Of a stretch of DNA of 64,000 bases, positions 19,826 to 53,422 are shown piece by piece. The notes under the pieces are model-generated. The model worked only from the letters and a program-made list of their open reading frames with translations. It searched no databases and had not been told where the DNA came from. The first letter of the stretch is position 1, and every line of letters begins with the position of its first letter. The DNA lies in the NCBI GenBank assembly GCA_013289795.1, contig JABCZH010000008.1, positions 186,001 through 250,000 on the forward strand, in the 5' to 3' direction. Both the position numbers and the translations under genes were made by a program. Source of the stretch: Acidobacteriota bacterium. Its GTDB lineage: Bacteria; Acidobacteriota; Terriglobia; Terriglobales; Acidobacteriaceae.

Positions 19826-21340
19826 ATGACGCCGAACCGTGGTCGAGACCTCTTGGCTAAGTTCTCGTATCGCGCCAACCCGCATCTGTACGAGATCAAC
19901 TCCTGGGTGTGGCTGGAGGAACTCTCAGCCAAATACGACCACTACTTGAGGTTGCAGGAGGTGCCCGATGAGGAGTGGGACCGCCTGGCGAGCCTGGGAT
20001 TCGATTTTGTGTACCTGATGGGGGTGTGGAAGCGAAGTCTGACCGGACGGCAAATCTTTCGCACCGACCAGAGGAATTTCCCTAATTTCGACGGCGCATT
20101 GCCGGGTTGGAAAATGAGCGATGTGGTGGGTTCGCCATTCTCCATTCAGGACTACACGCCCGATCCTCGTATCGCCACCGCGCAGGGCCTGAGCCAAGTA
20201 CACAATCAGTTGCGAAGGCGAGGTATGGGGTTGATTCTCGACTTTGTGCCCAACCACACCGGCTTCGACCATAGTTGGATACTGCAGCATCCTGACCGCT
20301 ACATTCAGGGCAGGGAAGAGGATTTTCGAGCAGATCCCGCAGCCTTTTACTTGGTGGAGAGAGAGGGTGATGAGAGTTTGTTCGTGGCTCGCGGCCGAGA
20401 TCCTTATTTTCCTCCGTGGTCGGACGTCGCACAGCTTAATTATTTCAATCCCGATTGCCGCCAAGGCATGATCGGGATTTTGAAGAACATCGCCCAGTAT
20501 TGCGATGGTGTGCGCTGCGATATGGCGATGCTGGTCACGAACGAGATATTCGATCGCACTTGGGACCGTTTCCTTCACCCCTGGCCCATGCCGAGAGCCG
20601 AATTTTGGGAGGAGGCGACGGCGGCGCTGCCGGATTTTGTGTGGCTGGCGGAAGTTTACTGGGACATGGAATGGAGAATGCAGCAACTGGGGTTCCAGTT
20701 CACTTACGACAAGCGCCTGTATGATCGCCTGAAGGAGGACTCAACCGGGCAGACGCGTGCCCATCTCTGCGCCGACATCGGCTACCAACGCAAACTGGCG
20801 CGCTTTCTCGAGAACCACGATGAGCCGCGCTGCGCCGCGACTTTCTCGCGCGAGAGAATTGCTGCTGTAGTCACGCTCCTGGCGACGTTGCCAGGGCTGC
20901 GCTTTTACCATCACGGCCAACTGGAGGGGAAAAAGACTTTCGTGCCTATGCCCTTGGCGAAGGCGCGATCGGAGCCAGCGGATCCACAGATTCGGGGATT
21001 GTACGAGCAGTTGCTGCGCTTCGCCGACGCGGAAGTCTTTCACGACGGGGAATGGAGGCTTCTAGAAGTGCAGTCGGCCGGAGATGACACCTTTCAAGAC
21101 CTCATCGCTTATGGCTGGCGCCACGGGGCTGATAACCGGCTGGTCGTGGTGAACCTGGGAGATCGAACAGCCCAGGGGAGAGTTCGGGACGCAGCCGGCG
21201 GGGCGGCTCGGGATTGCTTGTTCTGCGACAGGTTGGATGGCAGCGAGTACCCGCGGGCGCGCGCGGAGCTGGAGAGCGAGGGCCTGTACGTGAGGCTGGC
21301 GCCGAATCAGGCGCATGCCTTCGAGGTTAAAGAAAGCTAG
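19826..21340 (+). CDS. Alpha-amylase family (GH13) enzyme
   Basis: A 504-residue (beta/alpha)8-barrel glycosidase or transglycosidase without signal peptide. The four GH13 regions are visible: DFVPNHTGF (I), CDGVRCDMAM with the nucleophile Asp232 (II), WLAEVYWDME with acid/base Glu276 (III), and ENHDEPR with Asp332 (IV). The C-terminal ~100 residues form the usual beta-sandwich domain C (RLVVVNLGDRTAQGRV). The start is ATG 19826 behind GGAGGA; a TTG five codons upstream is less likely. It is divergent from the GH63-like gene, sharing a 200-bp promoter region. Its stop overlaps the stop of the convergent cytochrome gene within CTAG. Substrate not determinable. Confidence 0.88.
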   Translation: MTPNRGRDLLAKFSYRANPHLYEINSWVWLEELSAKYDHYLRLQEVPDEEWDRLASLGFDFVYLMGVWKRSLTGRQIFRTDQRNFPNFDGALPGWKMSDVVGSPFSIQDYTPDPRIATAQGLSQVHNQLRRRGMGLILDFVPNHTGFDHSWILQHPDRYIQGREEDFRADPAAFYLVEREGDESLFVARGRDPYFPPWSDVAQLNYFNPDCRQGMIGILKNIAQYCDGVRCDMAMLVTNEIFDRTWDRFLHPWPMPRAEFWEEATAALPDFVWLAEVYWDMEWRMQQLGFQFTYDKRLYDRLKEDSTGQTRAHLCADIGYQRKLARFLENHDEPRCAATFSRERIAAVVTLLATLPGLRFYHHGQLEGKKTFVPMPLAKARSEPADPQIRGLYEQLLRFADAEVFHDGEWRLLEVQSAGDDTFQDLIAYGWRHGADNRLVVVNLGDRTAQGRVRDAAGGAARDCLFCDRLDGSEYPRARAELESEGLYVRLAPNQAHAFEVKES

Positions 21341-22689
21341 CGGCCCACGACGTCGCTGACTCTTTGCATTTGAGCGGCAAATCGAGGTGCTGCATAGGCC
21401 GACAGATCCTGCAGCTGCGCGAACAGGCCGTCGATTGCGGTACGTATCTCGGCGCCGTTGGCTGGCTTCGCATTCTGGTTGTAAGCGCGGAACAACGAGT
21501 CCAGAGTCATGGCAGCCTGTTCCGCCGACCGCTCGCCTTCGATGGAGATTGCAGCCCCGTCACGCGCGACCCGCCGCATCAAGCGTAGCGTCAAGGCTGA
21601 GTCGTAACCTTGAGCGTCAAGTTGCTTCACTAACTGATCGGCGAGGGCGGAGGTTCGCGTTGCAGACGCGGCGATTTGCTCGCGATTGCCGTTTAGCTGG
21701 TTCATCAGGGTCGCGAGCTGAGAAACTTCATCGTTCAATTGCTTGGCGGCGTTGGGGCTGATCTCCGCGGCCAGATCACGGAATACAACCACGCGAGATT
21801 CGTTCCAGGGTGTATTGCCGGGCCGGCGCCCTGTGTAACCACGCTCCTGACGCCAGCTATCCTCGGGCCGCGTCAGGCTATGGTGGCAGGCAGAACAGTC
21901 GATTTCGGCGTACTCGGGCCATACCGGGCCACTCGCCCGGCGAGCCAACCGGTTGAGAGATTCGCGCAGTTGCACCGCCTGCCCGACCCCCCATGCCTGC
22001 ACTTCCCGCCAGGGGTTGCCCTGCTCCGGCATCTTCCAGTGCGCGGGCATGACAGAGGTAAAGAGACCGAGCTCGAAGGTGAGATCGGGGTGTCCAGCGG
22101 CGATCATCTCGTGATCCACAAACTTGTCGGCCGTACCCAGATGGCAGGTCAGACACTTGGCGCTGCGCTTCTCCAGATTGCGCGTGTCGTACATGCCGAG
22201 CTGAACGGACTTCTCATGCGGCCAGTCTTTCGTGGTATGAGGCCCCAGCCAACCCGACGCCGGACCGTGACAGTTCTCGCAACTTACGCCGTCGGCAGGT
22301 TCGAAGGTTTGCGCCTGCTGCTCGGCGGACACGTAGAGCGAGTGGCAGGCGAGGCATTTGGGAGCTTTGCTGGGCGCTCCAATGTTCAGGATTCTGCCGA
22401 TGCGCTCGGAAACTGGCTTGCTCAGGACGGCGAAAGCCTTCGCGTGCTTGTCTTGCGCGATCCAGATGGTGTACTCGTTCTGGAAAATGCGGGTGGTGGT
22501 CTTGGGCTGCACGCTGCCATGGCAACTGCTGGCGGCGCATCCTCCGGGGCCGTTGTATTTGCCGGCGGCGACGGCTTTCTGGTCGTAAGGTGGAGGGGCC
22601 GTCATCGAACTTGACCCAGCATTCTGCGCTGCGCTCATGGCTACCAGCATGAGCAGCGGGATGACGACCGCCAGCGGTTGCGTTCGCAT
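21337..22689 (-). CDS. Periplasmic multiheme cytochrome c (cytochrome c554-like)
   Basis: A 450-residue exported cytochrome. Signal peptide (MRTQPLAVVIPLLMLVAMSA), then four CXXCH motifs (CLACH, CENCH, CLTCH, CSACH) and one wider CX4CH (CAASSCH) within the first ~270 residues, giving up to five c-type hemes. The order and context (GGCAASSCHGS, then ARDKHAKAF-like text, then DGVSCENCHGPASGW) match the cytochrome c554/perC-class family. The C-terminal ~150 residues are helical and heme-free. Good ribosome binding site (GAGGAGA) before ATG 22689. It faces the NADH-oxidising operon at 22956 across 266 bp and probably belongs to the same electron-transfer system. Confidence 0.85.
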   Translation of the reverse strand: MRTQPLAVVIPLLMLVAMSAAQNAGSSSMTAPPPYDQKAVAAGKYNGPGGCAASSCHGSVQPKTTTRIFQNEYTIWIAQDKHAKAFAVLSKPVSERIGRILNIGAPSKAPKCLACHSLYVSAEQQAQTFEPADGVSCENCHGPASGWLGPHTTKDWPHEKSVQLGMYDTRNLEKRSAKCLTCHLGTADKFVDHEMIAAGHPDLTFELGLFTSVMPAHWKMPEQGNPWREVQAWGVGQAVQLRESLNRLARRASGPVWPEYAEIDCSACHHSLTRPEDSWRQERGYTGRRPGNTPWNESRVVVFRDLAAEISPNAAKQLNDEVSQLATLMNQLNGNREQIAASATRTSALADQLVKQLDAQGYDSALTLRLMRRVARDGAAISIEGERSAEQAAMTLDSLFRAYNQNAKPANGAEIRTAIDGLFAQLQDLSAYAAPRFAAQMQRVSDVVGR

Positions 22690-22955: not shown

Positions 22956-24614
22956 GTGTTTGAAGAACTGAGGGCCATACAACGAGATTTCGGCTACCTG
23001 CCCGCCGATCAACTCAAGGCGCTCGCGGGAAAGATACATGTCCCTGTCAGTCAAATCCATGCGGTAGCCAGCTTTTATCCCCACTTTCATCTCAGCCCTC
23101 CGCCGAAAGTCGACGTGCGCGTTTGTGCTGACATGAGTTGTCATCTTCGCGGAGGCGATCAGGTGCGGTCGGCTCTCGACTCCGCCTTCCAAGGTACTGA
23201 CGTGAAAGAAGTTTCCATCCGCGATGTTTCCTGTCTCGGCAGGTGCGATCAAGCACCCGCAATGATGGTGAATGACACCATCTACGCCCATGCGAATGGC
23301 CGGGACGCAGTCGCCATGGCACAAGATGTGCTCGCAGGCAAACCTCTCCCGGAAAATCACCACAGCCAGGAACGCATGACCGTGATGTCCGACCCGTATA
23401 AGGGATCGAGTGAGTATGCGGTGGTGCGCCGCCTGGTCGAAACCCGGGATTTTCTAGGAATTATTGCCGCCCTGAAAGCGGCTGGCTTGCGAGGCATGGG
23501 AGGCGCCGGTTTCCCTACTTCGAGCAAGTGGGAAATTGTCCGCAACGCGCCGGCGACGCCCAAGTACATTGTGTGCAATGCCGATGAGAGCGAACCCGGC
23601 ACTATCAAAGACCGCGGCATCATGGAGAACGTTCCGTATCTGGTGATTGAGGGCATGATCACCGCCGGCCTGGTCGCGGGAGCGCATAAAGGCATTCTCT
23701 ACATTCGCCACGAATACGAACATCCCAAGGAGGTTCTCCAGCAAGAGATTGGTCGCTGTTACAAGCAGGGTTTACTGGGGCGTCGAATCCTCGGAAGTGA
23801 TCTGGCTTTCGATTTGGAGATTTTCGTCAGCCCCGGTGGCTACATTTGCGGAGAGGAAAGCGCGCTGCTCGAAGCAATCGAGGGTAAGCGCGCGGAGCCC
23901 CGTAACAAGCCTCCGTTCCCGGTCATCAACGGATTGTGGAACCAGCCGACAGTCCTAAACAATGTTGAGACGTTCTGCCTGGCGACTGTGATTCTCGCTC
24001 GCGGCGCCGACTGGTTCAAAGGTCAGGGCAAGAACGGATCGGTAGGCGTGAAGTTTGTAGGCGTCAGCGGCGACGTGGTTCGCCCCGGCATTTTCGAAGT
24101 ACCGATGGGAACCACTTACGGTGAACTGATTAATGAAAATGCCGGCGGCATTCCGGGCGGCAAGCAGCTTCTCGCTTTTGCGCCCTCCGGCCCATCTTCG
24201 GGGTATCTGCCGGCTTCCATGACCAACTTGCCGCTCGACTGGAACGCGGTTGCGGCGGCGGGGTCCATGGTTGGATCAGGGGCCATCGTAGTGTGCGCCG
24301 AAGGCAGATGCATGTTGGATATGGCGCTCAACGCGACTCGCTTCTACCGCAATGAGTCGTGTGGCAAATGCGTGCCGTGCCGTGTGGGTTCGCAAAAGCT
24401 GGTCGAGATGCTCAAAGGCTGGACCGAAGGTCGAACTGCCAAAGAGGACATGCAAGTCATGGACGAGCTTTCGCTGGCCATGCGGCAGGCGTCAATTTGT
24501 GGATTGGGGCAGGTGGTGCCGGTTCCTATCGCGTCGGTGATGAAACATTTTCCAGGCGTGGTGGAAGATCACATTGTTCGCCGCAGCTGTCCGGGAGGCA
24601 TTTGCTTCAGTTAG
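22956..24614 (+). CDS. NuoE-NuoF fusion, NADH-binding flavoprotein subunit
   Basis: A 552-residue single polypeptide joining both diaphorase subunits. Residues 1-125 are NuoE-like with the [2Fe-2S] ligands Cys57, Cys62, Cys93 and Cys97 (CADMSC; SCLGRC). From about 150 it is NuoF-like: GLRGMGGAGFP (177-187) for NADH/FMN, CNADESEPGT, GGYICGEESALLEA, and SCGKCVPCRVG with the C-terminal Cys for [4Fe-4S]. Such fusions occur in HoxF and formate dehydrogenase diaphorases, but no hydrogenase or formate dehydrogenase gene lies next to it. It should oxidise NAD(P)H and pass electrons to the next gene product. GTG 22956 is the start; an in-frame stop lies nine codons upstream. The stop is 13 bp before the next ATG. 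Confidence 0.92.
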   Translation: MFEELRAIQRDFGYLPADQLKALAGKIHVPVSQIHAVASFYPHFHLSPPPKVDVRVCADMSCHLRGGDQVRSALDSAFQGTDVKEVSIRDVSCLGRCDQAPAMMVNDTIYAHANGRDAVAMAQDVLAGKPLPENHHSQERMTVMSDPYKGSSEYAVVRRLVETRDFLGIIAALKAAGLRGMGGAGFPTSSKWEIVRNAPATPKYIVCNADESEPGTIKDRGIMENVPYLVIEGMITAGLVAGAHKGILYIRHEYEHPKEVLQQEIGRCYKQGLLGRRILGSDLAFDLEIFVSPGGYICGEESALLEAIEGKRAEPRNKPPFPVINGLWNQPTVLNNVETFCLATVILARGADWFKGQGKNGSVGVKFVGVSGDVVRPGIFEVPMGTTYGELINENAGGIPGGKQLLAFAPSGPSSGYLPASMTNLPLDWNAVAAAGSMVGSGAIVVCAEGRCMLDMALNATRFYRNESCGKCVPCRVGSQKLVEMLKGWTEGRTAKEDMQVMDELSLAMRQASICGLGQVVPVPIASVMKHFPGVVEDHIVRRSCPGGICFS

Positions 24615-24627
24615 TGCTCAGAAGATC

Positions 24628-26790
24628 ATGAATCCCGCTGCAAAGCTCGTGGAGCTGACCATCGACGGCACGGCGGTCTCCGTGCCCCAGGGGACTACTA
24701 TTTTTGACGCTGCCCGCACCCACGGCATTCCCATCCCTACGCTTTGCCACCAGCAGAATGAGAATCCGGTGGGAGTGTGCCGGGTGTGCGTCGTGGATAT
24801 CGGCCAACGAGTTTACGCCGCTTCGTGTATTCGTCAGGCCGAGCAGGGGATGACGGTGAAGACGAACACCGCGCCGGTCGTGGGAGTCCGCCACACGCTG
24901 GTTGAGTTATTGATGTCCGACCATCCTTCTCCGTGCGCACGGCAGCAGCATTCCGGAGACTGCGAGTTGGAACGCCTGGCGGAGCAAGCTGGAATCCAGC
25001 AGCCGCGTTTCGCACGGCGCACGACGCCGCGCGGACATGACGATTCGTCCCTGGCAATCGCGGTTGATCACGAAGCCTGCATTCTGTGCGATCGCTGCAT
25101 ACGCGGTTGCGATGACATTCGGAACAACTGGGTGTTGGCGCGGCGGGGCAAGGGATATCAGGCGGGCATTGCCTTCGACAACAATTTACCGATGGGCGGC
25201 TCTTCATGTGTGTCGTGTGGTGAGTGCATGGTGTCCTGCCCCACCGGAGCGTTGACCAACCGGAGCGCGGTTGGTACCAAGCTCGAAGGCGGCGCTCTCG
25301 ATATCGGAGCACTGTTGGGGCTGCCGATCTTCAAGAATGTCTCCGGAACATTCCTGGAGTTAAACAGTCACGCCATTGTCGAGAGGAAGTTTCGCGCCGG
25401 AGAAATCATTTGCCGCGAAGGCGACTTCGGCGCCACCGCTTTCTACCTCGTGGACGGCAAGGTGGAGGTTTATCTTTCCAGCCCGATCGCTCATGTGAAG
25501 ACCGAGGGCAGCGCCAAGGGATTCTTGAGCAAGCTGCGAAGCATGCTGCAATCGCGCGAGCAGGATGAGCGTACCGAGGAAAGCAGCCGGGTCTCGATTC
25601 CGATTGATGCTCCGGTCGATCTCCCCTATGACCACCCGATTGCCGAATTGGGACCGGGAGACCTGTTCGGCGAAATGACGTGCATGAGTTATTACCCCCG
25701 TTCGGCGACGGTGCGCGCCAAGACGGACTGCACGATGCTCGAGATGCTGCGCAACGTTCTCGACATCATGCAGCGGAACAAGACGTTCCGCGAGCAACTG
25801 GACCGCACTTACCGGCAGCGGGCGCTGGATTCGCATCTGCGCAGCGTTCCTGTGCTGGCGTCGCTGACTCCGGATTTCATCGATCACTTGCGGAACCGCG
25901 TGGAACTCCTTCGCTTCACGCCCGGACAGGTGATTTGCACTCAGGGCGAGCCCGCCGACAGCTTTTATCTGGTGCGCCTTGGCTTTGTGAAAGTAGCCCA
26001 GAGCCGTCCCGGCGGGGAACTGGTTTTAGCCTATCTGGCCCGCGGTTCCTACTTTGCCGAGATGTCTCTGCTTACGGGTACGCCCCACATGGCCACGTGC
26101 AGCGCGCTTGATCATGTGGAGGTCGTCCGTGTCCCTGGAGAAGATTTCCAGGTCATGCTCGATCGCTTTCCGGAGATCCGTCGGAAGCTCGAAGAGGCGG
26201 CGGCCGAACACATGGAGCAGAACCGGCAACGAGTAACGAAAGTTGCCGACGTCACTGTGGACCAATTCCTCAACCAGGGCCTGATGGAGGCGCAGAGCCT
26301 GCTGATTCTCGACCTGGACCGCTGCACGCGCTGCGACCAATGCGTGCGGGCCTGCGCCGACGCTCACGACGGTGTGAGCCGGCTGATTCGTGACGGCCTG
26401 CGCTTCGATCGTTATCTGGTTGCGACTTCGTGCCGGCAGTGCCGTGACCCGCTGTGCATGGTGGGTTGCCCGGTCGGCTCCATTCGCCGGCGAAACACGC
26501 TCGAGGTGATTATCGAGGACTGGTGCATCGGCTGCGGCCAGTGCGCCAATAATTGTCCGTACGGAAATATCAATATGCACCCGTTCCCAGTGGAGTTGGA
26601 TGATCCCGCCTACCCTGGAAGGAGAATGGCGGGAGTGAAGGTCAAGGCTACATCGTGTGACCTTTGCCTGGATCATGCCGAACCCAGTTGCGTATACGCT
26701 TGTCCGCATGATGCCGCGCATCGCGTGAACCCGTTGGAGTTTTTCGGCGGCTTGCTAAAGCGACAGACCGTAGCCAAGTCGGGGAAATGA
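24628..26790 (+). CDS. Fe-S electron carrier fusion: NuoG-like N-terminus, two cyclic-nucleotide-binding domains, NrfC-like ferredoxin
   Basis: A 720-residue protein of unusual architecture. [2Fe-2S] Cys40/51/54/67; a NuoG-type cluster with only His99, Cys103 and Cys112 (the usual second Cys is absent); two [4Fe-4S] sets (151/154/157/161 and 194/197/200/204). Then two CNB domains: first at about 232-375 with DLFGEMTCMSYYPRSATV, keeping Glu349 and the phosphate-binding Arg358; second at about 405-505 with YFAEMSLLTGTPHMATC, where that Arg is His487. The C-terminal ~160 residues hold four more [4Fe-4S] Cys sets (566-576, 602-614, 633-643, 677-692) like HybA/NrfC. It should relay electrons from the NuoEF partner, possibly gated by cAMP. 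Start ATG 24628 chosen over an upstream in-frame start inside nuoF. Confidence 0.9.
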   Translation: MNPAAKLVELTIDGTAVSVPQGTTIFDAARTHGIPIPTLCHQQNENPVGVCRVCVVDIGQRVYAASCIRQAEQGMTVKTNTAPVVGVRHTLVELLMSDHPSPCARQQHSGDCELERLAEQAGIQQPRFARRTTPRGHDDSSLAIAVDHEACILCDRCIRGCDDIRNNWVLARRGKGYQAGIAFDNNLPMGGSSCVSCGECMVSCPTGALTNRSAVGTKLEGGALDIGALLGLPIFKNVSGTFLELNSHAIVERKFRAGEIICREGDFGATAFYLVDGKVEVYLSSPIAHVKTEGSAKGFLSKLRSMLQSREQDERTEESSRVSIPIDAPVDLPYDHPIAELGPGDLFGEMTCMSYYPRSATVRAKTDCTMLEMLRNVLDIMQRNKTFREQLDRTYRQRALDSHLRSVPVLASLTPDFIDHLRNRVELLRFTPGQVICTQGEPADSFYLVRLGFVKVAQSRPGGELVLAYLARGSYFAEMSLLTGTPHMATCSALDHVEVVRVPGEDFQVMLDRFPEIRRKLEEAAAEHMEQNRQRVTKVADVTVDQFLNQGLMEAQSLLILDLDRCTRCDQCVRACADAHDGVSRLIRDGLRFDRYLVATSCRQCRDPLCMVGCPVGSIRRRNTLEVIIEDWCIGCGQCANNCPYGNINMHPFPVELDDPAYPGRRMAGVKVKATSCDLCLDHAEPSCVYACPHDAAHRVNPLEFFGGLLKRQTVAKSGK

Positions 26791-26793
26791 AAT

Positions 26794-27714
26794 TTGCGGA
26801 TTGATGAGACACATCGAAAGTGGTTTATCGGCAGCCTGGTTGGACTGGCCGTGGCGGTTGTTGTGTACGTGCCTTACAGTCGCAGTTCGCCTCAGGGAGC
26901 CGGCGGCGGGACCACGATGGGCCTTATCTATGGCAGCGTTGCGTTCGCTTTCATGATATTTGCCGGTTTACTGGGCGCGCGCAAGAAAGTACCCATCTGG
27001 CGTTTAGGACGCGCGCAGGCGTGGATGCGAGGACATCTCTGGCTGGGCTTTGTCAGCTTTCCGTTGATTGTTTTGCATTCCGGGTTTCACTTTGGCGTGG
27101 GGCTTACGAAGGCGCTGATGTGGCTGTTCGCCGTGGTCTTTGTCAGCGGGATTGTGGGCGCGGTGCTACAGCACTTCATGCCACGGATCACCACGCAACG
27201 GATTCCACTGGAAACGATTTACGAGCAGATCGGGCGAGTTCGCTTGCAATTGATGGAAGAAGCAATTTCCCTGGTGGACGAGGCCTATGCCCTGCTGCAC
27301 GGCGACGTTTCTCAGGCCAATGAGCAACAGCGTGCCGCCTCGGCGAGCGCGGGGACCATGGGCGGGCTGACCGTTGCTTCCGGCATGCAAGTGGACGAGG
27401 AGGCCAGCGCCGAACTCAAGCAGTTCTTTCAAGGGGAAATCCAGCCATTTCTCGCGCAGAGCGGGTCGCACGGGCATGTCTTGGCCGATCGCAACCGCGC
27501 ACAGGCCATGTTTCGGCAACTGAGAACGCTGCTTCCTCCGAACCTGCACTCGACCGTCGATGATCTCGAGAATATCTGCGAGGAGAAGCGCGAAATCGAC
27601 CAGCAAGCCCGCTACCATCGCGTTCTGCACGGGTGGCTGCTGGTGCACATCCCTGCTTCCTACGCGTTGCTGATTCTGGGGGCGGTGCACGCCGTAATGG
27701 CGCTGCGATACTGA
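26794..27714 (+). CDS. Polytopic membrane protein, probable heme b or quinone-reactive subunit
   Basis: A 306-residue protein starting at TTG 26794, 3 bp after the preceding stop. Hydrophobic segments lie near residues 12-27, 43-60, 80-102 and 108-128, and at the C-terminus (LLVHIPASYALLILGAVHAV), separated by a ~140-residue soluble region. Conserved-looking His occur in membrane context (RGHLWLGFVSFPLIVLHSGF, then HFG, and RVLHGWLLVHIP and GAVHAV), as in cytochrome b-type di-heme proteins. I infer a membrane electron carrier linking the Fe-S protein to the decaheme cytochrome encoded next. No exact family recognised. Confidence 0.75.
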   Translation: MRIDETHRKWFIGSLVGLAVAVVVYVPYSRSSPQGAGGGTTMGLIYGSVAFAFMIFAGLLGARKKVPIWRLGRAQAWMRGHLWLGFVSFPLIVLHSGFHFGVGLTKALMWLFAVVFVSGIVGAVLQHFMPRITTQRIPLETIYEQIGRVRLQLMEEAISLVDEAYALLHGDVSQANEQQRAASASAGTMGGLTVASGMQVDEEASAELKQFFQGEIQPFLAQSGSHGHVLADRNRAQAMFRQLRTLLPPNLHSTVDDLENICEEKREIDQQARYHRVLHGWLLVHIPASYALLILGAVHAVMALRY

Positions 27715-27721
27715 GACGAAC

Positions 27722-29077
27722 ATGCTGCGACGCATCCGGACAACCAAGAAGCTGGCCAAGCGGATGGATTTGCAGTATTTCACACAGCCCCATCCCTTTC
27801 GCAGTTGGCGCCTGTGGCTGTCGGTCCTGGTCCCGGTCGTGGCAGTGGTTTGGTTTGCTGCGCTGCGCGCCCACGGACAGAAGGTTTACAGCAGTGGGCC
27901 GCTTTCGAAGTCTCACGCTGTCTTCGCCAAGCGTTGCGATGTTTGCCACGTAACCACGCTGGGGTTCTTCCGCGCGAAGGTCAGTGACAGCGCCTGTCTG
28001 AAATGTCACGATGCTCCAGCGCATCAGATCGACAGAGTGGCTTTCACGCCGGCCTGTGGCTCCTGCCACCTCGAGCATAAAGGCTCGCTGCGACTGGCGA
28101 GCACAGCCGATTCCAGTTGCACGCAATGCCACGCCGATTTGCACACTCGAACGGGAAGCCCGCAGTACGTTCGCGAGATAAGCGATTTCGACAACGAGCA
28201 TCCGGAGTTTGCAGTGTTGCGGCCGGGTGGCAAGGATCCTGGCCAGGTCAAGCTGAATCACTACGCGCACCTGCGTCCCAATCTTCCAGGCCCGGATGGC
28301 CCGGTGCAGATGGATTGCCAGGACTGCCATCGCCTGACGGGGATGGAGGGAAACTGGCCCTATGCGGCTCAGACGATGCCTCCGCTGAAGCCAGTCACGG
28401 CCGGTGCCAGTGCGGACATGAGGCCGTCCCGCTCCCGCGATTACATGTCGCCCATTCTTTACGCCACGCAGTGCGCCGGCTGTCACGTGAAGGATTTGCA
28501 ATTCGACAAACGCTTCGAGCAGTCGGCGCCGCATGACAAGCCGGAGGTCGTCCAGGCCTTTCTGCTGCAGAAATACAGCGAGTACTTCGCGTCTCATCCG
28601 GGAGCGTTGTCGGAACCGGTTGCACCGGAGCGGATTCTGCCGGGCAAGTTTAAGTTACCTCTGCCGGTGCCGCACAATCGCCAGGAATGGATGGATCAGC
28701 AAGTCATGCTGGCGGATCGTCTGCTGTTCGATAAGGGCTGCAAGCTGTGCCATGTGATGATCGAAACCAACGCGCCGCTGCCTACGGTGGCCCCCTCGTC
28801 GATTCCCGCGCGCTGGTTGCTGCATGCCGATTTCAGCCACAACTCCCATCGCTTGCTGACCTGCGTGGCCTGCCACAACCGGACTCCCGAAAGCCGTGAA
28901 ACCGCCGACATTCTGCTGCCCGGCGTCGCATCATGCCGGAGCTGCCATCAGGAGCGCGGGCCAAAGCAGGACGCCGCCAGTGGAAACTGTTCCGAGTGTC
29001 ACTCGTATCACGATTGGAAAAGGGAACAGCCCATCAAGGGGAAGTATTTGATCCCGCAGTTGCAGGCAGCGAGGTAG
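27722..29077 (+). CDS. Membrane-anchored decaheme cytochrome c
   Basis: A 451-residue protein with one N-terminal TM (LWLSVLVPVVAVVWFAAL) and ten CXXCH motifs: CDVCH, CLKCH, CGSCH, CTQCH, CQDCH, CAGCH, CKLCH, CVACH, CRSCH, CSECH. Hemes should sit on the periplasmic side. The TM is unlikely to be cleaved because basic residues precede it and no AxA site is evident. It is last in an operon with the NuoEF fusion, the CNB/Fe-S protein and the His-rich membrane protein, which suggests electrons from NAD(P)H leave the cytoplasmic membrane here. It ends 16 bp from the convergent TonB-like gene. Confidence 0.88.
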   Translation: MLRRIRTTKKLAKRMDLQYFTQPHPFRSWRLWLSVLVPVVAVVWFAALRAHGQKVYSSGPLSKSHAVFAKRCDVCHVTTLGFFRAKVSDSACLKCHDAPAHQIDRVAFTPACGSCHLEHKGSLRLASTADSSCTQCHADLHTRTGSPQYVREISDFDNEHPEFAVLRPGGKDPGQVKLNHYAHLRPNLPGPDGPVQMDCQDCHRLTGMEGNWPYAAQTMPPLKPVTAGASADMRPSRSRDYMSPILYATQCAGCHVKDLQFDKRFEQSAPHDKPEVVQAFLLQKYSEYFASHPGALSEPVAPERILPGKFKLPLPVPHNRQEWMDQQVMLADRLLFDKGCKLCHVMIETNAPLPTVAPSSIPARWLLHADFSHNSHRLLTCVACHNRTPESRETADILLPGVASCRSCHQERGPKQDAASGNCSECHSYHDWKREQPIKGKYLIPQLQAAR

Positions 29078-29937: not shown

Positions 29938-31353
29938 CTAGCCCTCGCGCACCTTGTGGCCGGCCAGATTGCCCAGGCCTTCGTAGGCGGCGTATTTGTA
30001 GGTTTCGCTGAGGGTGGGATAGTTGAAGACCTGTTCGATAAATTCGTCAATCGTCAGGTTGTGGTCGAGAACGGTCATTCCGATGTGAATCAGCTCAGTA
30101 GCGCTTTCGCCGATAATGCTCACTCCTAGCAGTTTCTTGTCAGCACGGGCGAAGATGAGTTTCAGCATCCCGGCGGTGTCGCCGATGATGTGGCCACGGG
30201 CGTTGTTGGCATAGAGAGCCCGGCCGACACAGTAGTCGATCTTTTTCTCTTTGCAGGATTCTTCGGTCTCACCTGCGCTGGAGATTTCAGGAATGGTGTA
30301 AATCCCCATGGGCAGCATCGAAGCGACGCGCTGCTTGTATTTGAAGCCGAAGGCATGGCAGACGGCGACGCGTCCTTGTTCCATGGAGGTTGAAGCCAGC
30401 GCGGGGAATCCGATGACGTCGCCGGCGGCGTAGATGTGGGGCACGGCGGTCCTGTAGTGCTCGTCGACGGATATGTATCCGCGGTCGTTGATGGCCAGGC
30501 CCGCCTTTTCGAGAGACAGGCCTTCCACCGCAGCGCGGCGTCCGGCAGCGAACAGAGTGGCTTCGGTTTGCAGCGTCTTGCCGCTCTTCATCACTAACTG
30601 CACGCCTGCGGCATCGGTTTGCACCTTCACCGGCCGTTCGTTGAACCAGAACTGCATTCCAAGCGCGGCGAGCCGCACGTGGAGTCGCTCGGAGATCTCC
30701 GCGTCGAGGAAGGGAAGCAGGCGGTCACGGCCATCGACCAGCGTGACCTTCACGCCGAGCGCGACGAAGATTGACGCGTACTCGCAGCCAATTACGCCAC
30801 CGCCGATCACGGCGAGGCTTTGTGGGATGTGGTCCATCTGCAAGAAGGTATCGGAATCGAAAACCCGGACGTCGTCGAAAGCTATTTCTGCGGGACGATG
30901 CGGCTTGCTTCCGGTGGAGATCAGCATCACATCTCCGCGCAATCGGCGAATGCCATCCGGGCCGGAAACGGAGACAGTGTGAGCGTCTTCGAACGCAGCC
31001 CGGCCGCGGACGAGTTCGATGTGATGCAGCGCGAGATTCTTCAGGATGCGCTCACGCTCCCTTTCAACCACTTCGCGCTCGTGGTGCATGAAATCGCTGA
31101 TGGTGAGATTTTCTTTCAGCGAATAGTCGATGCCGTAAAGACCGCGTTGCTTGAGGCCGGAAAAGTAGAGTGCAGATTCACGCAACGTCTTGCTGGGGAC
31201 GGTGCCGGTATTAATGCAGCTTCCGCCCACAAACTCGGCGGACTCGATGACCGCAACGCGTTTGCCGAAATAGGCCGCTTGCGCGCCGGCTTTTTCGCCG
31301 GCAGGGCCGCAGCCGATCACGATGAGATCGAAATCTTCCGTAGAAGCCAACAA
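29938..31353 (-). CDS. sthA: Soluble pyridine nucleotide transhydrogenase (Si-specific)
   Basis: A 471-residue FAD-dependent flavoprotein that exchanges reducing equivalents between NADPH and NAD+. FAD-binding LIVIGCGPAGEKAGAQAA near the N-terminus; GGSCINTGTVPSKTLRE replaces the redox disulfide of dihydrolipoamide dehydrogenase, since the second Cys is Thr, which is the SthA signature. A second nucleotide-binding fold is VIGGGVIGCEYASIF, and IYAAGDVIGFPALAS is the second FAD contact. The C-terminal dimer domain is complete but lacks the His-Glu pair of disulfide reductases. The start is one of two adjacent TTG codons behind GGAGG. A perfect inverted repeat lies 33 bp upstream. Confidence 0.9.
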   Translation of the reverse strand: MLASTEDFDLIVIGCGPAGEKAGAQAAYFGKRVAVIESAEFVGGSCINTGTVPSKTLRESALYFSGLKQRGLYGIDYSLKENLTISDFMHHEREVVERERERILKNLALHHIELVRGRAAFEDAHTVSVSGPDGIRRLRGDVMLISTGSKPHRPAEIAFDDVRVFDSDTFLQMDHIPQSLAVIGGGVIGCEYASIFVALGVKVTLVDGRDRLLPFLDAEISERLHVRLAALGMQFWFNERPVKVQTDAAGVQLVMKSGKTLQTEATLFAAGRRAAVEGLSLEKAGLAINDRGYISVDEHYRTAVPHIYAAGDVIGFPALASTSMEQGRVAVCHAFGFKYKQRVASMLPMGIYTIPEISSAGETEESCKEKKIDYCVGRALYANNARGHIIGDTAGMLKLIFARADKKLLGVSIIGESATELIHIGMTVLDHNLTIDEFIEQVFNYPTLSETYKYAAYEGLGNLAGHKVREG

Positions 31354-32084: not shown

Positions 32085-35000
32085 CTACCAACGGGCTTTT
32101 CCTGGCGGATCATCGCTAACCGTGTACATCTGCCCGTTGCGAAGATACATGCGCTGCAACTCTTGCTGATTAAACGGACGCGCCCCGCGGCGGCCGAGCA
32201 CCGCTATCTGGTTGCCGCTCTCATCTACACCGCGATCGCGGTCGGTACCTTTTGAAATCGCCAGCGCCGGGCCTGCGGTATGGCGGCCGGCAATCAGTTT
32301 CGGCGTAGGGCGTGGGCTGAACCCGGCGAAGTTGGGATTATCGGTGGGAGAAAACAACTGAATGACACGCAGCCCGTTCTTGCCGTCGGCGATGTAGGCA
32401 AACAGTTCCGATGAGACCATGCCCAGCTTCACGTCGTTGACGTCGTTCATGACGCCATTCGCATTGAAGACTTGATCCAGCTTCGGCTGCTCGGGACGCT
32501 CGATGTCCACGATGGCCACGCCTTGCTTGCCGGCGGAAACGTAGGCGTAGGTGCGGGCCACATAAATGTTGCGGGCGTCTTCGATCTGAACTCTGGCTCC
32601 GTCAATCGGCAATGGGTGGTCGAGGTGCGTGATGTCGAAAACCTTCAATCCCTCACGATCGACGATGAAAGCATAGCGGAACTGTACGGCGATTCCGTGC
32701 GGATCATTCAGATATGGCGTGCCAACCTGCGCCACCAGTTCCGGCTTCAGCGGGTTGTTGAGGTTCACCACGGCCAGGCCAGCATCGCAAAGAATATAGG
32801 CGTAGGTGCCGACGATGGTGATTCGGCGCGCGCCCTTCAGCGTCCCGTTAGGATTGAAAGCCAACGCGCGCTTCAGGAAATTGTCGTTCGGATCGCCATT
32901 GAGCAGTGTGCCCACGCCCGGACTTCTGCTTTTCAAGTTCGGATCGCCGATCACGACCAGGCCTTCCTCTTTGTCCGCAACGTAAAGGAAGCCATACATC
33001 AGGTGGATCGACTGTTCTTCATTTTCCGGGCGGTGAGTGCGCAAGGGATCGACTGCCAAAGTTGTGGGTGTTGCCACCGCTGCCGCGTATTTGGTGGGAA
33101 CGTAGAAACGCTGACCAATTGGCGACACCGGCGCCGTGATCGTACGCTGAGAAATATCTTTGTCGTCGATGTTGGCGATGTCATAGACGCGAAGGCCTCG
33201 CTTCCCCATGGCAGCGTACAGGTATTCGCCGCGTGCTTGGACGTCCAACACTTCCGAGCCGGCATGTCCGTAGGCTTCCTTCAACTCGTTGTGATTGCTC
33301 AGGTGCCTCTTGTAATTGTCCGGATACGCCAGCCTTTGCAGATCGCTGCCAATGACCGCGGGAGGTTCATCATGTTCGGTGACCGCGACGGCTTCGTATC
33401 CCTTCGCGCCCGTGGCCACGTAGATGTAGCGGCCCATGAAATTCATATAGTTGGTGCCGAGAAGCAGCAACTGGGTCAGCCAGGCGTTGTTATCGCCGGC
33501 TTTCGAAACGTGGCAGTCGGTGCAGCCTTTGGTTTCTTTCGCGCGCACGGTATGAGGGACGAAGGTGCTGAACGCCTGTCCGCTGAACCCCTCAGCGGAA
33601 ACGGTTTGCTGCTGATAGTAGATCCAGTCGCGATTGTTGTTCTGCGAACTGACCAGCACCGCACAGGCCGAGCGCACCGGAGCGACGCGGTGCCCGGTGA
33701 CGGTGCCGTCGATCGCCAGGCTGAACACATCATCCCGCAGGACCTGGAAATCGTATGAAGTCCAATTGCGGGTGGTGAGGCCCTCGTTGTGCAGCATCGG
33801 CATCTTTTGATTCGCGACCATGGGCAGATGGCAGCCATAGCAGGTCGGCGCCCAGGAACTGTGGCAGGCATAACACGTCATCTCGCTGTTTGGGTGGGCG
33901 AGTTCGGACTGATCGCCTTTGGCATCACCCCAGGTGATGGCGTCTTTCTGGATGGTTTTCGCGAGTCGTGATTTCTCGCTGTAATGCGAATTGCCCGGAG
34001 TGATGGAATCGAGGACTTGCACCACTTCCCACCGCTGGTTTTGCTCGAGCATCGAACGCTGGAAGAGCTTGCCGCCATCCCAGTAAAAGCGGCGTTCACC
34101 CCAGGGAGTGCGAAGGCCGGCCAGGTCGGTGCCGCTGGCGGGCGCGGCGATTCCTGATGTGCGCAGAGTGGTGCGTTGTTGAATGGTGCCGTGGCAATCC
34201 ACGCAATCGACTTCGATTGCGTTTCGCGTCTCTCCGTAGAGTTTGCCATTGCCGTGATTGTCCTGGGTAAAGTGGCAGTCGATGCAGTGCATGCCTTTTT
34301 CCAGGTGGATGTCTTTCAGGTGAACGGCTTTCTTAAACTTGTCGGGATCGGTGAATGAAACTTGCCTGCCGTCGGAATCCAGCAAGTTGCCTTTTCGATC
34401 GTGCTCGAAGACCGCACGGAAAATCCAGCCGTGACTGTGGAAGTCGGCGAACTGGGTGTTGTTGAGTTGGCTGTTGAATTCCGGCGTTCCTGTCTTCTCC
34501 AGGAAATTTACATCTGCCCAGTTGCCACGGATGGCGGCGCGTTCCGGATCGCGTTGCTGGATCTGCTGCTGTTCCTTCGCGCTGGGATGGCGCTGCTCCT
34601 TGGGATACATCTTGTCGCCATCGACTTCGTTGTCCCACCAGGTGTAGCCAAAATAAGTCGCCACCATGTTGGTGCCGGGATGGATATGGCACACAATGCA
34701 CTGGCTCGAAGGGATGGAGCGGGTGAATGCGTGTTTGAGGGGATGTCCGGATTCGTTCTTGGGAATGGTTGGATCAACCGTCGCGGCCTGCCCCAGATTG
34801 CCCCCGACCGCGTAATGTCCCGAATGTTCCGGCGAGCGATCATTGGCGTAGATCACGTGGCAGGCGCTACATCCGCTGGCCCGGTAATCACCCGGTTGAT
34901 CATTCGTTCCTGGGAATGAGAGCAATGGGTCCAGCAGCCGCGTCTTTTGCAAGCCGAGAACGGTGGGATCTGTGCGCAGTAACGTTCCGAAGCCGCGCTC

Positions 35001-35858
35001 GCCGAGTTTCACATCTGGCTTCCCTGGTTCTTCTTCGAGGCTCGGAATTCCAACCTCGGGTTTCTTTTCGCCGCCACGCTCGAAGATTCGCAGAACGTTG
35101 CCGGGCTGAGAAACTTCCCAGCGCTGAATCGGTTCCAGATAAGGCAGCACACCCTTGACGCGGGTTTCCTCCGCAGTGGGTGGCGGGAAGGTTTGCAGCC
35201 GTTGGGGAGTACCGTCGGTGGCATAGCTCTCGCCGAAGTGGGGATTCTTCAGCGGGATGGCCCCATTGTTGTAGAGGGCAGCGCCCCAAAGCATGGCGCC
35301 GTGAGTCATCATGCTGGTGCGTACGCGCTGGACTTCGGCCGTGTGGCATCCCGAGCGGCCGCAGGTTTGCTCCGCCACTCGCAGATCTCCTGGATTCACA
35401 AACTTGATGTACTCCGCGTCCTCCTTCAACCAATTGGTGTAGGCGCGAACGGGATTAGCGGAGCTATCGGCATCGCGGGCGAAGCGAGGGCGCGGATGCG
35501 CCTGCCGGGTAATTTCCTGGTACTGCGGCGAGCCTTGCGCAACACCGGCGGGTAGCGCGGTCTCGGCATCTCCTCCATGACAGTCTGTGCAACCCAGGCG
35601 CACAGTTCCCCGGGTGTGCATGGTCGGACTGTCCATGGGGTTATGGCAGGTTACACAACCTGCCGATCTCTGCTGCGCTTCTTCTAGCGAGTCTCCAAGC
35701 CCGGGCGAGCTTTGTTCAACGCCTGTCTGTGGCAGGAATTCTGCGACATGCACTGGCGCAGCAGTCTTGCCGGGAAGGTCGAACAGAGCCAGGGCTGCAC
35801 AGACGAATGTTGCTGCTGCCAGCACTTGTCCTAATCGTTGCCAAGAAAAACGCTGCAT
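32085..35858 (-). CDS. Exported ten-heme cytochrome c with C-terminal LVIVD beta-propeller
   Basis: A 1257-residue protein. An N-terminal hydrophobic segment ([17 protein letters not shown]) is a signal peptide or anchor. Over about 65-770 it carries nine CXXCH (CVTCH, CTDCH, CSACH, CIVCH, CIDCH, CVDCH, CYACH, CYGCH, CTDCH) and one CX4CH (CGRSGCH). From about 840 on come roughly six LVIVD-type blades ([111 protein letters not shown]). Heme proteins with surface propellers are candidates for outer-surface electron transfer. It begins 9 bp after the barrel gene and is probably co-transcribed with it. It differs from OmcB/MtrC types in having the propeller. Confidence 0.87.
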
Positions 35859-47642: not shown

Positions 47643-49463
47643 TCAGGAACTTATAACAGTGCGCTCTCCCGGATCACGGACGCGCTGCACACGGTAAGCG
47701 ACGAAATCGCCCTCGTGCTTGGTGGGAATTGAAATCTGTTGCACCTCGACCGCGTTCCACAAATGCTGGTAGATTTCCGGGCTGATCAGCACTTGGCCCC
47801 CTTTGGCACCGTCGCAATAGCGGGCGGTACGGTTCACGGCCTCTCCGATGATGGTGAATTCCATCCGTTCCGGCGACCCGATGAAGCCGTGGAGGACTTG
47901 CCCGGTATGGATCCCAATCCCGATCTCGCAACTGACCTCTGATTTCGCCTTGCGCCGCTTGCTCACTTCCCGCGCCGCTTCCTGCATTTCCATTCCTGCC
48001 ACGACCGCTTTCCGGCAATGTTGAGGATCCGCTTCCGGACTGCCGAAAACCGCCAGAATGGCGTCGCCGACGAACTTATCGATTGTGCCATCATTGCGAA
48101 AGATGCACTCCGTCAGCGCAGCGAAATACTCGTTCAGCAAAGAAACCACATCGTCGGTGGGCATGCCGGCAGTCAATTGGGTAAAGCCCCGGATGTCCGC
48201 GCACAGCACCGAAACCACCGACTGCTCACCTCCCAGGCGCAACCGGCCCATCTGGGCACGCTGTAGCAATCGGGTCCGCACTTTGGGGGAGAAGTTGGTC
48301 AGCAGCCTTTCGAGAACGTCGGTGTTCTGCTTCAGCGTAAGCAGGAGTTGCTGGTTTGCGATCGCCAGCGCCAACTGATGGGCCAGCGAGGTCACCAGCA
48401 GCAAGTCGTCTTTCCCAAAACTTTGTGGGGCGCAAGTGCAATCGATACAAATTACGCCGATGGCCTGACCATTGACCACTAGGGGAACATACATTCCCGA
48501 CTCAACCTTCGATTCCTTTTGAGTTCGGGTCATTTCCTTTCCACGGTTCCAAATGAAACCCTTCTGGTCGGCAATGGCACGCTTCGCGGAGGTCATGCTG
48601 ATCATGGGAACCGTGCCCAGAGGACCGTGCGCCTTCAACAGGAGTTCGCTGCCGGTGGCGTCATTTACCAGGATTGCGCAACGTTCCCCGGTGCTCACCA
48701 GGCGCAGCAGTTGCTCTACGGCCTTTTGCAGCATAGGCTCCAGCAGTCCTTGAGTACCGAATTCCCAGGTGAGTTCGCTCAATACAGTCAACCGTCTGAT
48801 GGAGTCAAGGGCCTGTGGGGCCGCCGCTTGGTAAGACTGCATTGCAAACCGGGTATCGACGGCCTCGGTGACCTGAACTGCCTCGCGGAACTCCTGGGAC
48901 ACCACTGTGTCGAGGTCAGTCATTCGGGGATCAAGACTCATGGAGACCAGTTGGGTCAGCGACTCGATCGGCTGCAGTTCTCGCAGAATGGCCGAGAGGC
49001 CTACCTGCATGGCCGCGGTTGCCTCTTCGATTCCAGAATCATGAGCTTGAAGCAACGCTCGCAGCAGGGATGGCACGTCTAGTACGGGGAACCCTTGGGT
49101 GGCAGCTTGTTCAAATATGTGCCGGGAAGCGTCCGACCGGCTGAGGGCTTGGCCGTGAGGCAAAGCGCTCGAACTCTTCGGCGCGCGTGCCGCGGAAGTA
49201 CGCCGCACTGCCCGGCGAATCGAAGGAATATCAAGACCGCGCCGGCGGGCTAGTTCGTCCAGTTGGTCGGCTTCGGGCTTTACGCCCACTACCAGGTCGT
49301 CCTTCTTGTGCCCCTTTTCCGCGGCGGCGACCAACTTTCCGAGCGAGAAAATTCCAAAGAAAAGATGCCTGGGTTCAATAAGCGGGTCCTTCTCCTGGAA
49401 AGCCAGGTCGCCGGCGACCCGCCAAGCCAGCTTCACACCGGGAGATAGTGCCATCTCTGCCAT
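47643..49463 (-). CDS. Class III adenylate cyclase with Clp_N-like and GAF domains
   Basis: A 606-residue soluble protein with three parts. The N-terminus has two helical repeats resembling the Clp ATPase N-domain (LAWRVAGDLAFQEKDPLIEP then RHLFFGIFSLG; later ASRHIFEQAATQGFPVL). A GAF domain lies at about 225-375 (YVPLVVNGQAIGVICIDCTC). The C-terminus is the cyclase: VVSVLCADIRGFTQL and IDKFVGDAILAVFGSP give the metal Asp, and IIGEAVNRTARYCDGAK the Asn/Arg pair. It should make cAMP in response to a GAF ligand. The Clp_N link to a cyclase is unusual. The start may be ATG 49463 or the ATG three codons later. Confidence 0.88.
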   Translation of the reverse strand: MAEMALSPGVKLAWRVAGDLAFQEKDPLIEPRHLFFGIFSLGKLVAAAEKGHKKDDLVVGVKPEADQLDELARRRGLDIPSIRRAVRRTSAARAPKSSSALPHGQALSRSDASRHIFEQAATQGFPVLDVPSLLRALLQAHDSGIEEATAAMQVGLSAILRELQPIESLTQLVSMSLDPRMTDLDTVVSQEFREAVQVTEAVDTRFAMQSYQAAAPQALDSIRRLTVLSELTWEFGTQGLLEPMLQKAVEQLLRLVSTGERCAILVNDATGSELLLKAHGPLGTVPMISMTSAKRAIADQKGFIWNRGKEMTRTQKESKVESGMYVPLVVNGQAIGVICIDCTCAPQSFGKDDLLLVTSLAHQLALAIANQQLLLTLKQNTDVLERLLTNFSPKVRTRLLQRAQMGRLRLGGEQSVVSVLCADIRGFTQLTAGMPTDDVVSLLNEYFAALTECIFRNDGTIDKFVGDAILAVFGSPEADPQHCRKAVVAGMEMQEAAREVSKRRKAKSEVSCEIGIGIHTGQVLHGFIGSPERMEFTIIGEAVNRTARYCDGAKGGQVLISPEIYQHLWNAVEVQQISIPTKHEGDFVAYRVQRVRDPGERTVISS

Positions 49464-53311: not shown

Positions 53312-53422
53312 GTCCGGCCAGGTCCGAAGTGTAAGCCGGGGTGGGAAAGCGGTCAACCGGCAATGCACGAGGCGCGTCGAGTAGCCTGGCCGAAACCTGT
53401 CATTGAATCTGCTAAGGCCGTT

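Follow-up and report, generated by a model that had tools for sequence, protein, structure and literature searches.

A candidate NADH-fed porin-cytochrome conduit with cyclic-nucleotide-binding domains in Acidobacteriota

We report that a 64,000-nucleotide stretch of the genome of a soil Acidobacteriota bacterium (the window; GenBank assembly GCA_013289795.1, contig JABCZH010000008.1, positions 186,001 to 250,000) carries a conserved set of electron-transfer genes, here named A, B, C, D, U, E and F, and a nearby class III adenylate cyclase gene, CYC (Table 1). We consider it rather probable that the set encodes a trans-envelope conduit of the porin-cytochrome type, similar to PCC4, a predicted porin-cytochrome conduit (PCC) described by He et al. 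2017 (PMC5566968), and that it would be fed by NADH, run outward and be switched by a cyclic nucleotide. The proposal draws on gene content, synteny, cofactor ligands, an intact cassette for cyclic adenosine monophosphate (cAMP) in B, and linkage to the cyclase.

The first-pass annotation of the window had described A, B, C and D as a four-gene complex. The four open reading frames (ORFs) and the gaps of 13, 3 and 7 bp between them were confirmed, and the domain matches and motifs bear out their description as a NuoE-NuoF fusion, a multi-cluster Fe-S protein, a His-rich membrane protein and an anchored decaheme cytochrome. A unit of four genes is not supported; U, E and F are conserved together with A to D. 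The earlier account was also partial in that two cyclic-nucleotide-binding (CNB) domains in B and the linked cyclase had gone unseen.

Table 1. Coordinates of the genes and domains discussed, in window positions (FMN, flavin mononucleotide)
Feature	Position	Strand	Basis
CYC: CHASE2 sensor and class III adenylate cyclase, 784 residues	13508..15862	+	PF05226 (3.2e-57), PF00211 (1.4e-27)
U: exported c554-family cytochrome, 4 CXXCH and 1 CX4CH, 5 haems	21337..22689	-	PF13435
A: NuoE-NuoF fusion, NAD(H)-binding flavoprotein ([2Fe-2S], FMN, [4Fe-4S])	22956..24614	+	PF01257, PF01512, PF10531, PF10589
B: HoxU/NuoG-like Fe-S domain, CNB1, CNB2 and four [4Fe-4S], 720 residues	24628..26790 (from ATG)	+	domain matches, invariant cysteines
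B, CNB1	25381..25761; phosphate-binding cassette ~25666-25710 (E349, R358, S359)	+	PF00027
B, CNB2	25912..26166	+	PF00027
C: predicted five-helix dihaem b-type membrane protein of the PCC3/PCC4 inner-membrane type, TTG start	26794..27714	+	invariant motifs, model
D: membrane-anchored periplasmic decaheme cytochrome	27722..29077	+	10 CXXCH
SthA-type soluble NAD(P) transhydrogenase; neighbour, possible metabolic partner	29938..31353	-	NF003585 (583.6 bits, cut-off 465)
E: decaheme cytochrome of 1257 residues (9 CXXCH and 1 CX4CH) with LVIVD repeats	32085..35858	-	PF08309 (1e-19)
F: predicted outer-membrane beta-barrel with N-terminal CarboxypepD_reg domain, 735 residues	35868..38075	-	PF13620

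B was used to scan 84,980 species genomes, and 78 distinct loci were recovered (the best 80 of 89 confirmed places), nearly all in metagenome-assembled genomes (MAGs) of Acidobacteriota, with four in Planctomycetota and one in a cultured strain, Granulicella aggregans. All four genes were present in 65 of the 78 loci, and in 63 of these 65 they are ordered A-B-C-D on one strand; the two exceptions (L081 and L083, both Planctomycetota; L numbers denote loci and G numbers genomes) have A and B together and C and D on the other strand. This order is kept far beyond chance. At least two loci were fetched twice (L119/L076 and L120/L074) and counts over loci are slightly inflated. Among 396 Acidobacteriota genomes, the CNB-ferredoxin core of B was found, at the limit used, in 23, ten of them close (at least 59% identical) and 13 diverged (35-41%). 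Residue conservation was read from alignments of 31 of 69 full-length B, 48 of 75 C and 18 F proteins. Two contigs labelled Rhodanobacteraceae and Betaproteobacteria (L067, L091) hold acidobacterial-looking copies with B 61-68% identical, which may reflect mis-binning or transfer.

A matches PF01257 (5.5e-29), PF01512 (2.9e-39) and PF10589 (1.3e-25), the SLBB and 4Fe-4S parts being included. The N-terminus of B is HoxU/NuoG-like with [2Fe-2S] and [4Fe-4S] clusters, and its C-terminus is a four-cluster ferredoxin part; the cysteines of the [2Fe-2S], the two N-terminal [4Fe-4S] and the four C-terminal [4Fe-4S] sites are invariant in 31/31 aligned proteins. At an additional N5-like His/Cys site (residues 99-112, positions ~24922-24963), which in relatives has three cysteines, the His and two Cys are kept and the middle Cys is absent in 31/31. 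B is accordingly predicted to have one [2Fe-2S], six complete [4Fe-4S] sites and one site that is short of one ligand. Moreover, A was found in 76 of 76 Acidobacteriota and Planctomycetota loci with a full B N-terminus and in 0/8 without it (a count that omits six loci with B less than 600 bases from a contig end and 14 diverged-B loci, Sphingobium included), and the two-gene NADH input therefore appears to be gained or lost as one piece. In two Planctomycetota loci (L070, L073) the 22 kb that were fetched contain A and B but none of C, D and U and no multihaem gene of any kind; E-F is located elsewhere on the same contigs (L125, L126).

For the inner-membrane step, the main text of He et al. 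(PMC5566968) describes the PCC3/PCC4 inner-membrane protein as having five transmembrane helices, with SGXXG on the fourth and WX3HX13H on the third and fifth, and proposes that it binds two b haems. The corresponding residues of C (W77, H81, H95, S118, G119, G122, W281, H285 and H299) are invariant in 48/48 aligned proteins. By pattern these hallmarks were detected in 95 of 99 C proteins (both WX3HX13H motifs) and, in a second count, in 97 of 99; the four proteins missed in the first count have one WX3HX13H each, two of these ORFs being short pieces. Membrane helices are seen in the model of C (mean predicted local distance difference test, pLDDT, 84), for which Foldseek gave no match at E 0.001 or better. 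By Pfam C has only a weak DUF4405 match, and no PDB sequence relative was found. A second fold comparison had sensor helical bundles in its top rows, with cytochrome b561 (Z 7.0) and STEAP1 (Z 7.4) among many tied helical rows, and was not used.

D has ten CXXCH motifs, cytochrome c7/c3 matches and, by eye, one N-terminal hydrophobic stretch. Ten motifs were counted in 84 of 90 D sequences, some of the others being cut or cross-hits. In 87 sequences the ten motif His and ten further His are conserved at 94% or more; ten bis-His haems are therefore possible, with no free catalytic haem, and D would act as a wire. Searching the PDB with D gave a weak cytochrome c3 match only; a cytochrome c7 domain search of the genome of the window pointed to two places and was not used.

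As regards the outer part, U was present in 36 of the 38 loci of at least 20 kb and lies on the strand opposite to A in 60 of the 62 loci that have both. Five motifs (CX2-4CH) were found in 76 of 86 U sequences, some others again being cut or cross-hits, and among the called genes of the window haem motifs are confined to U, D and E. The E-F pair is convergent to D and 3 kb further on in the window; this arrangement recurs in 34 of 78 loci, with the stop ends of D and E-F at most 75 bp apart in 23 of them. E was found in 24 of the 38 loci of at least 20 kb. Another 27 genomes, almost all picked because E was missing from the fetched locus, were examined as well, and 23 of them encode it. Across the phylum it occurs in 42 of 396 genomes, 16/23 B-positive vs 26/373 B-negative (Fisher p = 2e-12, kinship uncorrected). 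In four of nine E neighbourhoods from genomes under the limit for B, a diverged B is beside E (L129, L131, L133, L134). The C-terminal Phe735 of F is invariant among the aligned F proteins, and neither E nor F has a PDB sequence relative at the limits used.

In three distant Acidobacteriota loci (L133, L134, L137) inner and outer parts form a single string, B'-C-D-X-F-E, where B' is a flavoprotein-type B, with U in two of the three; in L137 the string reads B'-C-D-X-F-E-U with a CHASE2-cyclase further on. The C proteins of all three carry both WX3HX13H and SGXXG. In the two strings tested (L133, L137) X is HbpS-like, and such a protein (PF03928, 570-800 residues) is linked to F-E in L133, L137, L125 and L130. 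Outside Acidobacteriota and Planctomycetota, Sphingobium plasmids hold B', and one of these (NZ_CP020539.1) also C', D', E' and F'; E was found on 13 plasmids, 12 from Sphingobium and one from Sphingopyxis.

From this arrangement we infer the following path, in which complex formation, direction and the outer-membrane role of F and E are predicted and gating is our least certain claim. A would accept electrons from NADH onto FMN and B would relay them along its Fe-S clusters; the two b haems of C would take them across the inner membrane, from where D, with ten bis-His haems, would serve as periplasmic wire. U and the E-F pair would then carry them onward, reaching the outer membrane and probably crossing it, to an acceptor in the periplasm or outside the cell. 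The nearby CHASE2-cyclase would make a cyclic nucleotide, probably cAMP, whose binding to CNB1 of B would open or close the run of Fe-S clusters that links the NADH module to C. The first-pass annotation had read the gene order as a physical path; that reading is supported, from the cytoplasmic NAD(H) module over the Fe-S protein and the membrane b-type cytochrome to the decaheme in the periplasm, for a unit that is larger than A to D. Flow from cytoplasm to periplasm is favoured by the membrane potential and is downhill from NADH. Since outward flow through C would spend membrane potential, the conduit would be a redox outlet (a valve) and not an energy-conserving chain, and because no energy would be conserved a gate would be useful. 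The SthA-type transhydrogenase would fit a supply of NADH from NADPH; besides its position near D in the window, such a gene directly adjoins U in five of 78 other loci (L023, L025, L030, L035, L061).

The case for gating begins with the two CNB domains in the middle of B (PF00027, 1.8e-39, 134.1 bits vs a cut-off of 27.5). The phosphate-binding cassette of CNB1 (Glu, Arg, Ser) is invariant in 31/31 aligned B proteins. Of 85 close relatives, 81 show the CNB1 pattern FGEMTC-PRSAT; the four misses comprise two cut ORFs, one Thr to Ala replacement and one not found. Close relatives that lack A keep the CNB1 Glu and Arg in 9/9, and the flavoprotein-type B' of Sphingobium, L133, L134 and L137 keeps both cassette Arg. 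In CNB2 the cassette Arg is His in the genome of the window and Arg in most close relatives.

The catalytic domain of the window cyclase scores 97 bits (cut-off 21.9) and its CHASE2 domain 194.5 bits (cut-off 26.3). Judged by eye, its catalytic residues are presumably in place, and from its motifs its specificity is taken to be for adenylate rather than guanylate. A cyclase domain lies ~6.5-11 kb from B in six of eight genomes with the full form of the locus (G000, G005, G013, G028, G054, G411), and in five of these six it is the only cyclase found in the genome; a single randomly placed gene would be equally near B in ~0.2-0.6% of cases, several of these genomes being related. In G188, which lacks A, the only cyclase is ~2.5 kb from F, on the contig that carries U, E and F. 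Of the 78 loci, 21 have a class III cyclase in the flanking sequence that was fetched; all 11 that were tested by Pfam match PF00211 (11/11), the remainder having been identified by phmmer or BLAST. They vary in position (a CHASE2-cyclase may lie upstream of U, follow F or be found downstream of D) and in architecture (CHASE2-cyclase, FHA-GAF-cyclase, and a different N-terminus in Planctomycetota). G291 has two copies of B. In L112 the cassettes are lost and the contig carries no cyclase, while in L137 they are intact and the CHASE2-cyclase lies ~15 kb along the same string of same-strand genes. Two more cyclase-domain proteins are encoded 9-15 kb past F in the window, a GAF-cyclase and a partial cyclase with TPR (47646-49463 and 50762-53368, both on the minus strand).

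A number of observations weigh against the proposed conduit or its gating. Both cassette Arg are replaced in 13/13 diverged B proteins (the CNB1 position being Gln in ten, Val in two and Ile in one); the notion of a universal cyclic-nucleotide cassette in B was rejected on this ground. None of the 13 diverged-B genomes has a cyclase within 10 kb of B, nor was one found near B in two of the eight full-form genomes (G029, G400) or in 5/5 close genomes without A, the cassettes of which are intact. No cyclase is seen in 57 of the 78 fetched loci, many of them short. The genome of the window has ten further places of the CNB family that are possible targets of the cyclase. Class III cyclases occur in 253 of 396 genomes of the phylum; their presence by itself therefore carries little weight, and it was dropped as evidence, with linkage alone being used. 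The incomplete [4Fe-4S] site in B could lengthen the electron hop at that point. With respect to the outer part, the model of F (~17 long strands) is of low confidence (mean pLDDT 54), and five of the nine E neighbourhoods from B-negative genomes are without a B-like gene, so that E-F can stand without the inner part.

That the conduit operates as proposed while the CNB domains are structural spacers or sensors of another signal, with no second-messenger gating, seems to us somewhat unlikely. Such a reading would account for the diverged B proteins, which retain the CNB domains (8/8 tested) in spite of the replaced Arg, for the His in CNB2 of the genome of the window and for the A-less genomes without a cyclase near B; against it stand the conserved CNB1 pattern of the close relatives, the two Arg of the flavoprotein-type B' and the recurrence of cyclases of several architectures at the flanks.

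Tentatively, and with less confidence than for the conduit itself, we regard it as quite possible that this is a conduit under direct allosteric second-messenger control, in which cAMP from a dedicated envelope-sensing cyclase binds inside the Fe-S relay and gates the export of NADH electrons, and evolution swaps the input as a unit, be it an NADH module, a flavoprotein or nothing. To our knowledge, the links between cAMP and electron transfer known so far are transcriptional (CRP). Two further features touch on regulation and input. D-type cytochromes with an N-terminal FHA domain occur in L094, L137 and L131, where this domain is a possible second regulatory domain on the same wire. An octahaem cytochrome precedes the cassette-lost B in seven of the 13 diverged forms (L108, L109, L112, L114, L115, L117, L118); it is of the c554 type in the two tested and possibly represents another input, from the periplasm.

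The same conduit might run in reverse, with reductants from outside the cell or from the periplasm (Fe(II), Mn(II), reduced humics) feeding E, F, U, D and C, and B and A reducing NAD+; this we regard as improbable. Reversible NADH modules do exist, but to reduce NAD+ with such donors costs energy, electrons entering through C would have to move against the membrane potential, and the neighbouring transhydrogenase fits an NADH supply better. In favour of the reversed direction is the scheme for PCC4, which in He et al. 2017 (PMC5566968) is drawn with the quinone pool receiving electrons from a donor outside the cell.

Similarly doubtful is a respiratory branch confined to the inner membrane and periplasm, in which D would deliver to U or E as a periplasmic reductase and F would be an unrelated barrel. 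E is 45% identical to its Sphingobium counterpart, whereas C and D are 25-26% identical, as might be expected for an enzyme, and E has 15 conserved non-motif His (at 91% or more), which exceeds what wire haems require. These points are set against the position of F, the immediate same-strand neighbour of E in 29 of the 30 loci with room for it, and against one distant family of F (L129, L131) that bears four haem motifs, with a class III cytochrome domain in L129; a haem-bearing F suits an outer-membrane electron path. Furthermore, a large decaheme cytochrome adjoining a porin is a published conduit group (PMC13264449).

Finally, A and B might be a leftover, or an alternative form, of the NADH module that serves complex I, a hydrogenase or a formate dehydrogenase. 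Their best family matches are indeed to NuoE/F/G, HoxU and HydA, but neither exceeds an equivalog cut-off of these families (for B, among the best 25 of 72 families): NuoF 426 bits vs 558.65, NuoE 84.8 vs 141, NuoG 109.1 vs 470.05, [FeFe] hydrogenase A6 (HydA) 210.3 vs 765 and HoxU 166.4 vs 333. The hydrogenase and HoxU matches to B have their best stretch only in the N-terminal ~210 residues. Because the scores listed fall below the cut-offs, the A-B diaphorase appears from its sequence to be a family separate from NuoE/F/G, HoxU and HydA. With two other NuoF-type genes elsewhere in the genome, one adjoining a reading frame of NuoG length, and, as the first-pass annotation had noted, none of the annotated neighbouring genes encoding a subunit of a hydrogenase or a formate dehydrogenase and no catalytic subunit seen at the locus, the leftover module is a very improbable explanation.

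The earlier view that no known complex has this composition is not supported, given that C has all the hallmarks of the PCC3/PCC4 inner-membrane protein and that the E-F pair resembles a porin-cytochrome group published in 2026. PCC4, according to its main text (PMC5566968), comprises an inner-membrane protein, cytochromes with 4, 5 and 10 haems and a porin, has Planctomycetes among its carriers and in Subgroup II has an Fe-S gene (pfam13247) upstream of the inner-membrane protein. By this description the present locus is alike in its ten- and five-haem cytochromes and its C-type inner-membrane protein; the further tetrahaem cytochrome of PCC4 is not among the called genes of the window. B, as a candidate counterpart of the Fe-S gene, lies directly upstream of C; PF13247 scores 22.4 bits in B of the window vs a cut-off of 26.2, and is above the cut-off in the Sphingobium relative. 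F is a candidate for the porin. The present locus differs in that a NuoEF and HoxU NADH module leads, and in its two CNB domains, linked cyclase and giant LVIVD decaheme. That main text has no occurrence of the words cyclic, LVIVD, FHA and thioredoxin, the supplement with the drawings of redox-gene domains being outside the search.

The Group-1 porin-cytochrome complexes from Sterkfontein MAGs (2026, PMC13264449) have, as described there, a decaheme gene of 4-5 kb adjoining a porin of ~20 strands, with a ferredoxin-NADP reductase gene nearby in 7/11. E (3.8 kb) beside F, and the flavoprotein-type B' in relation to the reductase gene, are comparable to these by description. Its main text has zero matches to cyclic, NuoF, LVIVD and adenylate cyclase. 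The N-module of complex I, HoxEFU and HydABC share the NuoE-NuoF domain order and a NuoG/HoxU-like N-terminus; here these parts lead to a CNB-ferredoxin and a b-cytochrome and not to quinone or hydrogenase. The Sphingobium plasmid locus (NZ_CP020539.1) is alike in having a B' with two CNB domains and an Fe-S tail, together with C', a decaheme D', E' and F'; its B' differs in having a flavin/NAD(P) reductase-type domain as input in place of the HoxU part, and its D' has an FHA domain. Within 21 kb of this locus an EAL-domain protein is annotated, and no NuoEF or cyclase. The general kind of system is already covered by PMC5566968 and PMC13264449. We found no paper on the NuoEF-HoxU input, the CNB domains or the cyclase link (preprints, most subscription papers and supplements were outside the search), and none pairing LVIVD or an FHA domain with a multiheme cytochrome.

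If the proposal is correct, a ligand socket inside the wire would place the export of electrons under fast and direct control, and this would account for the cell being able to afford an uncoupled NADH outlet. It would also provide soil and peat Acidobacteriota, some Planctomycetota and carriers of sphingomonad plasmids with a route for disposing of reducing power extracellularly. The swapping of input modules suggests engineering uses, and Granulicella aggregans, as a cultured carrier, makes the export route testable.

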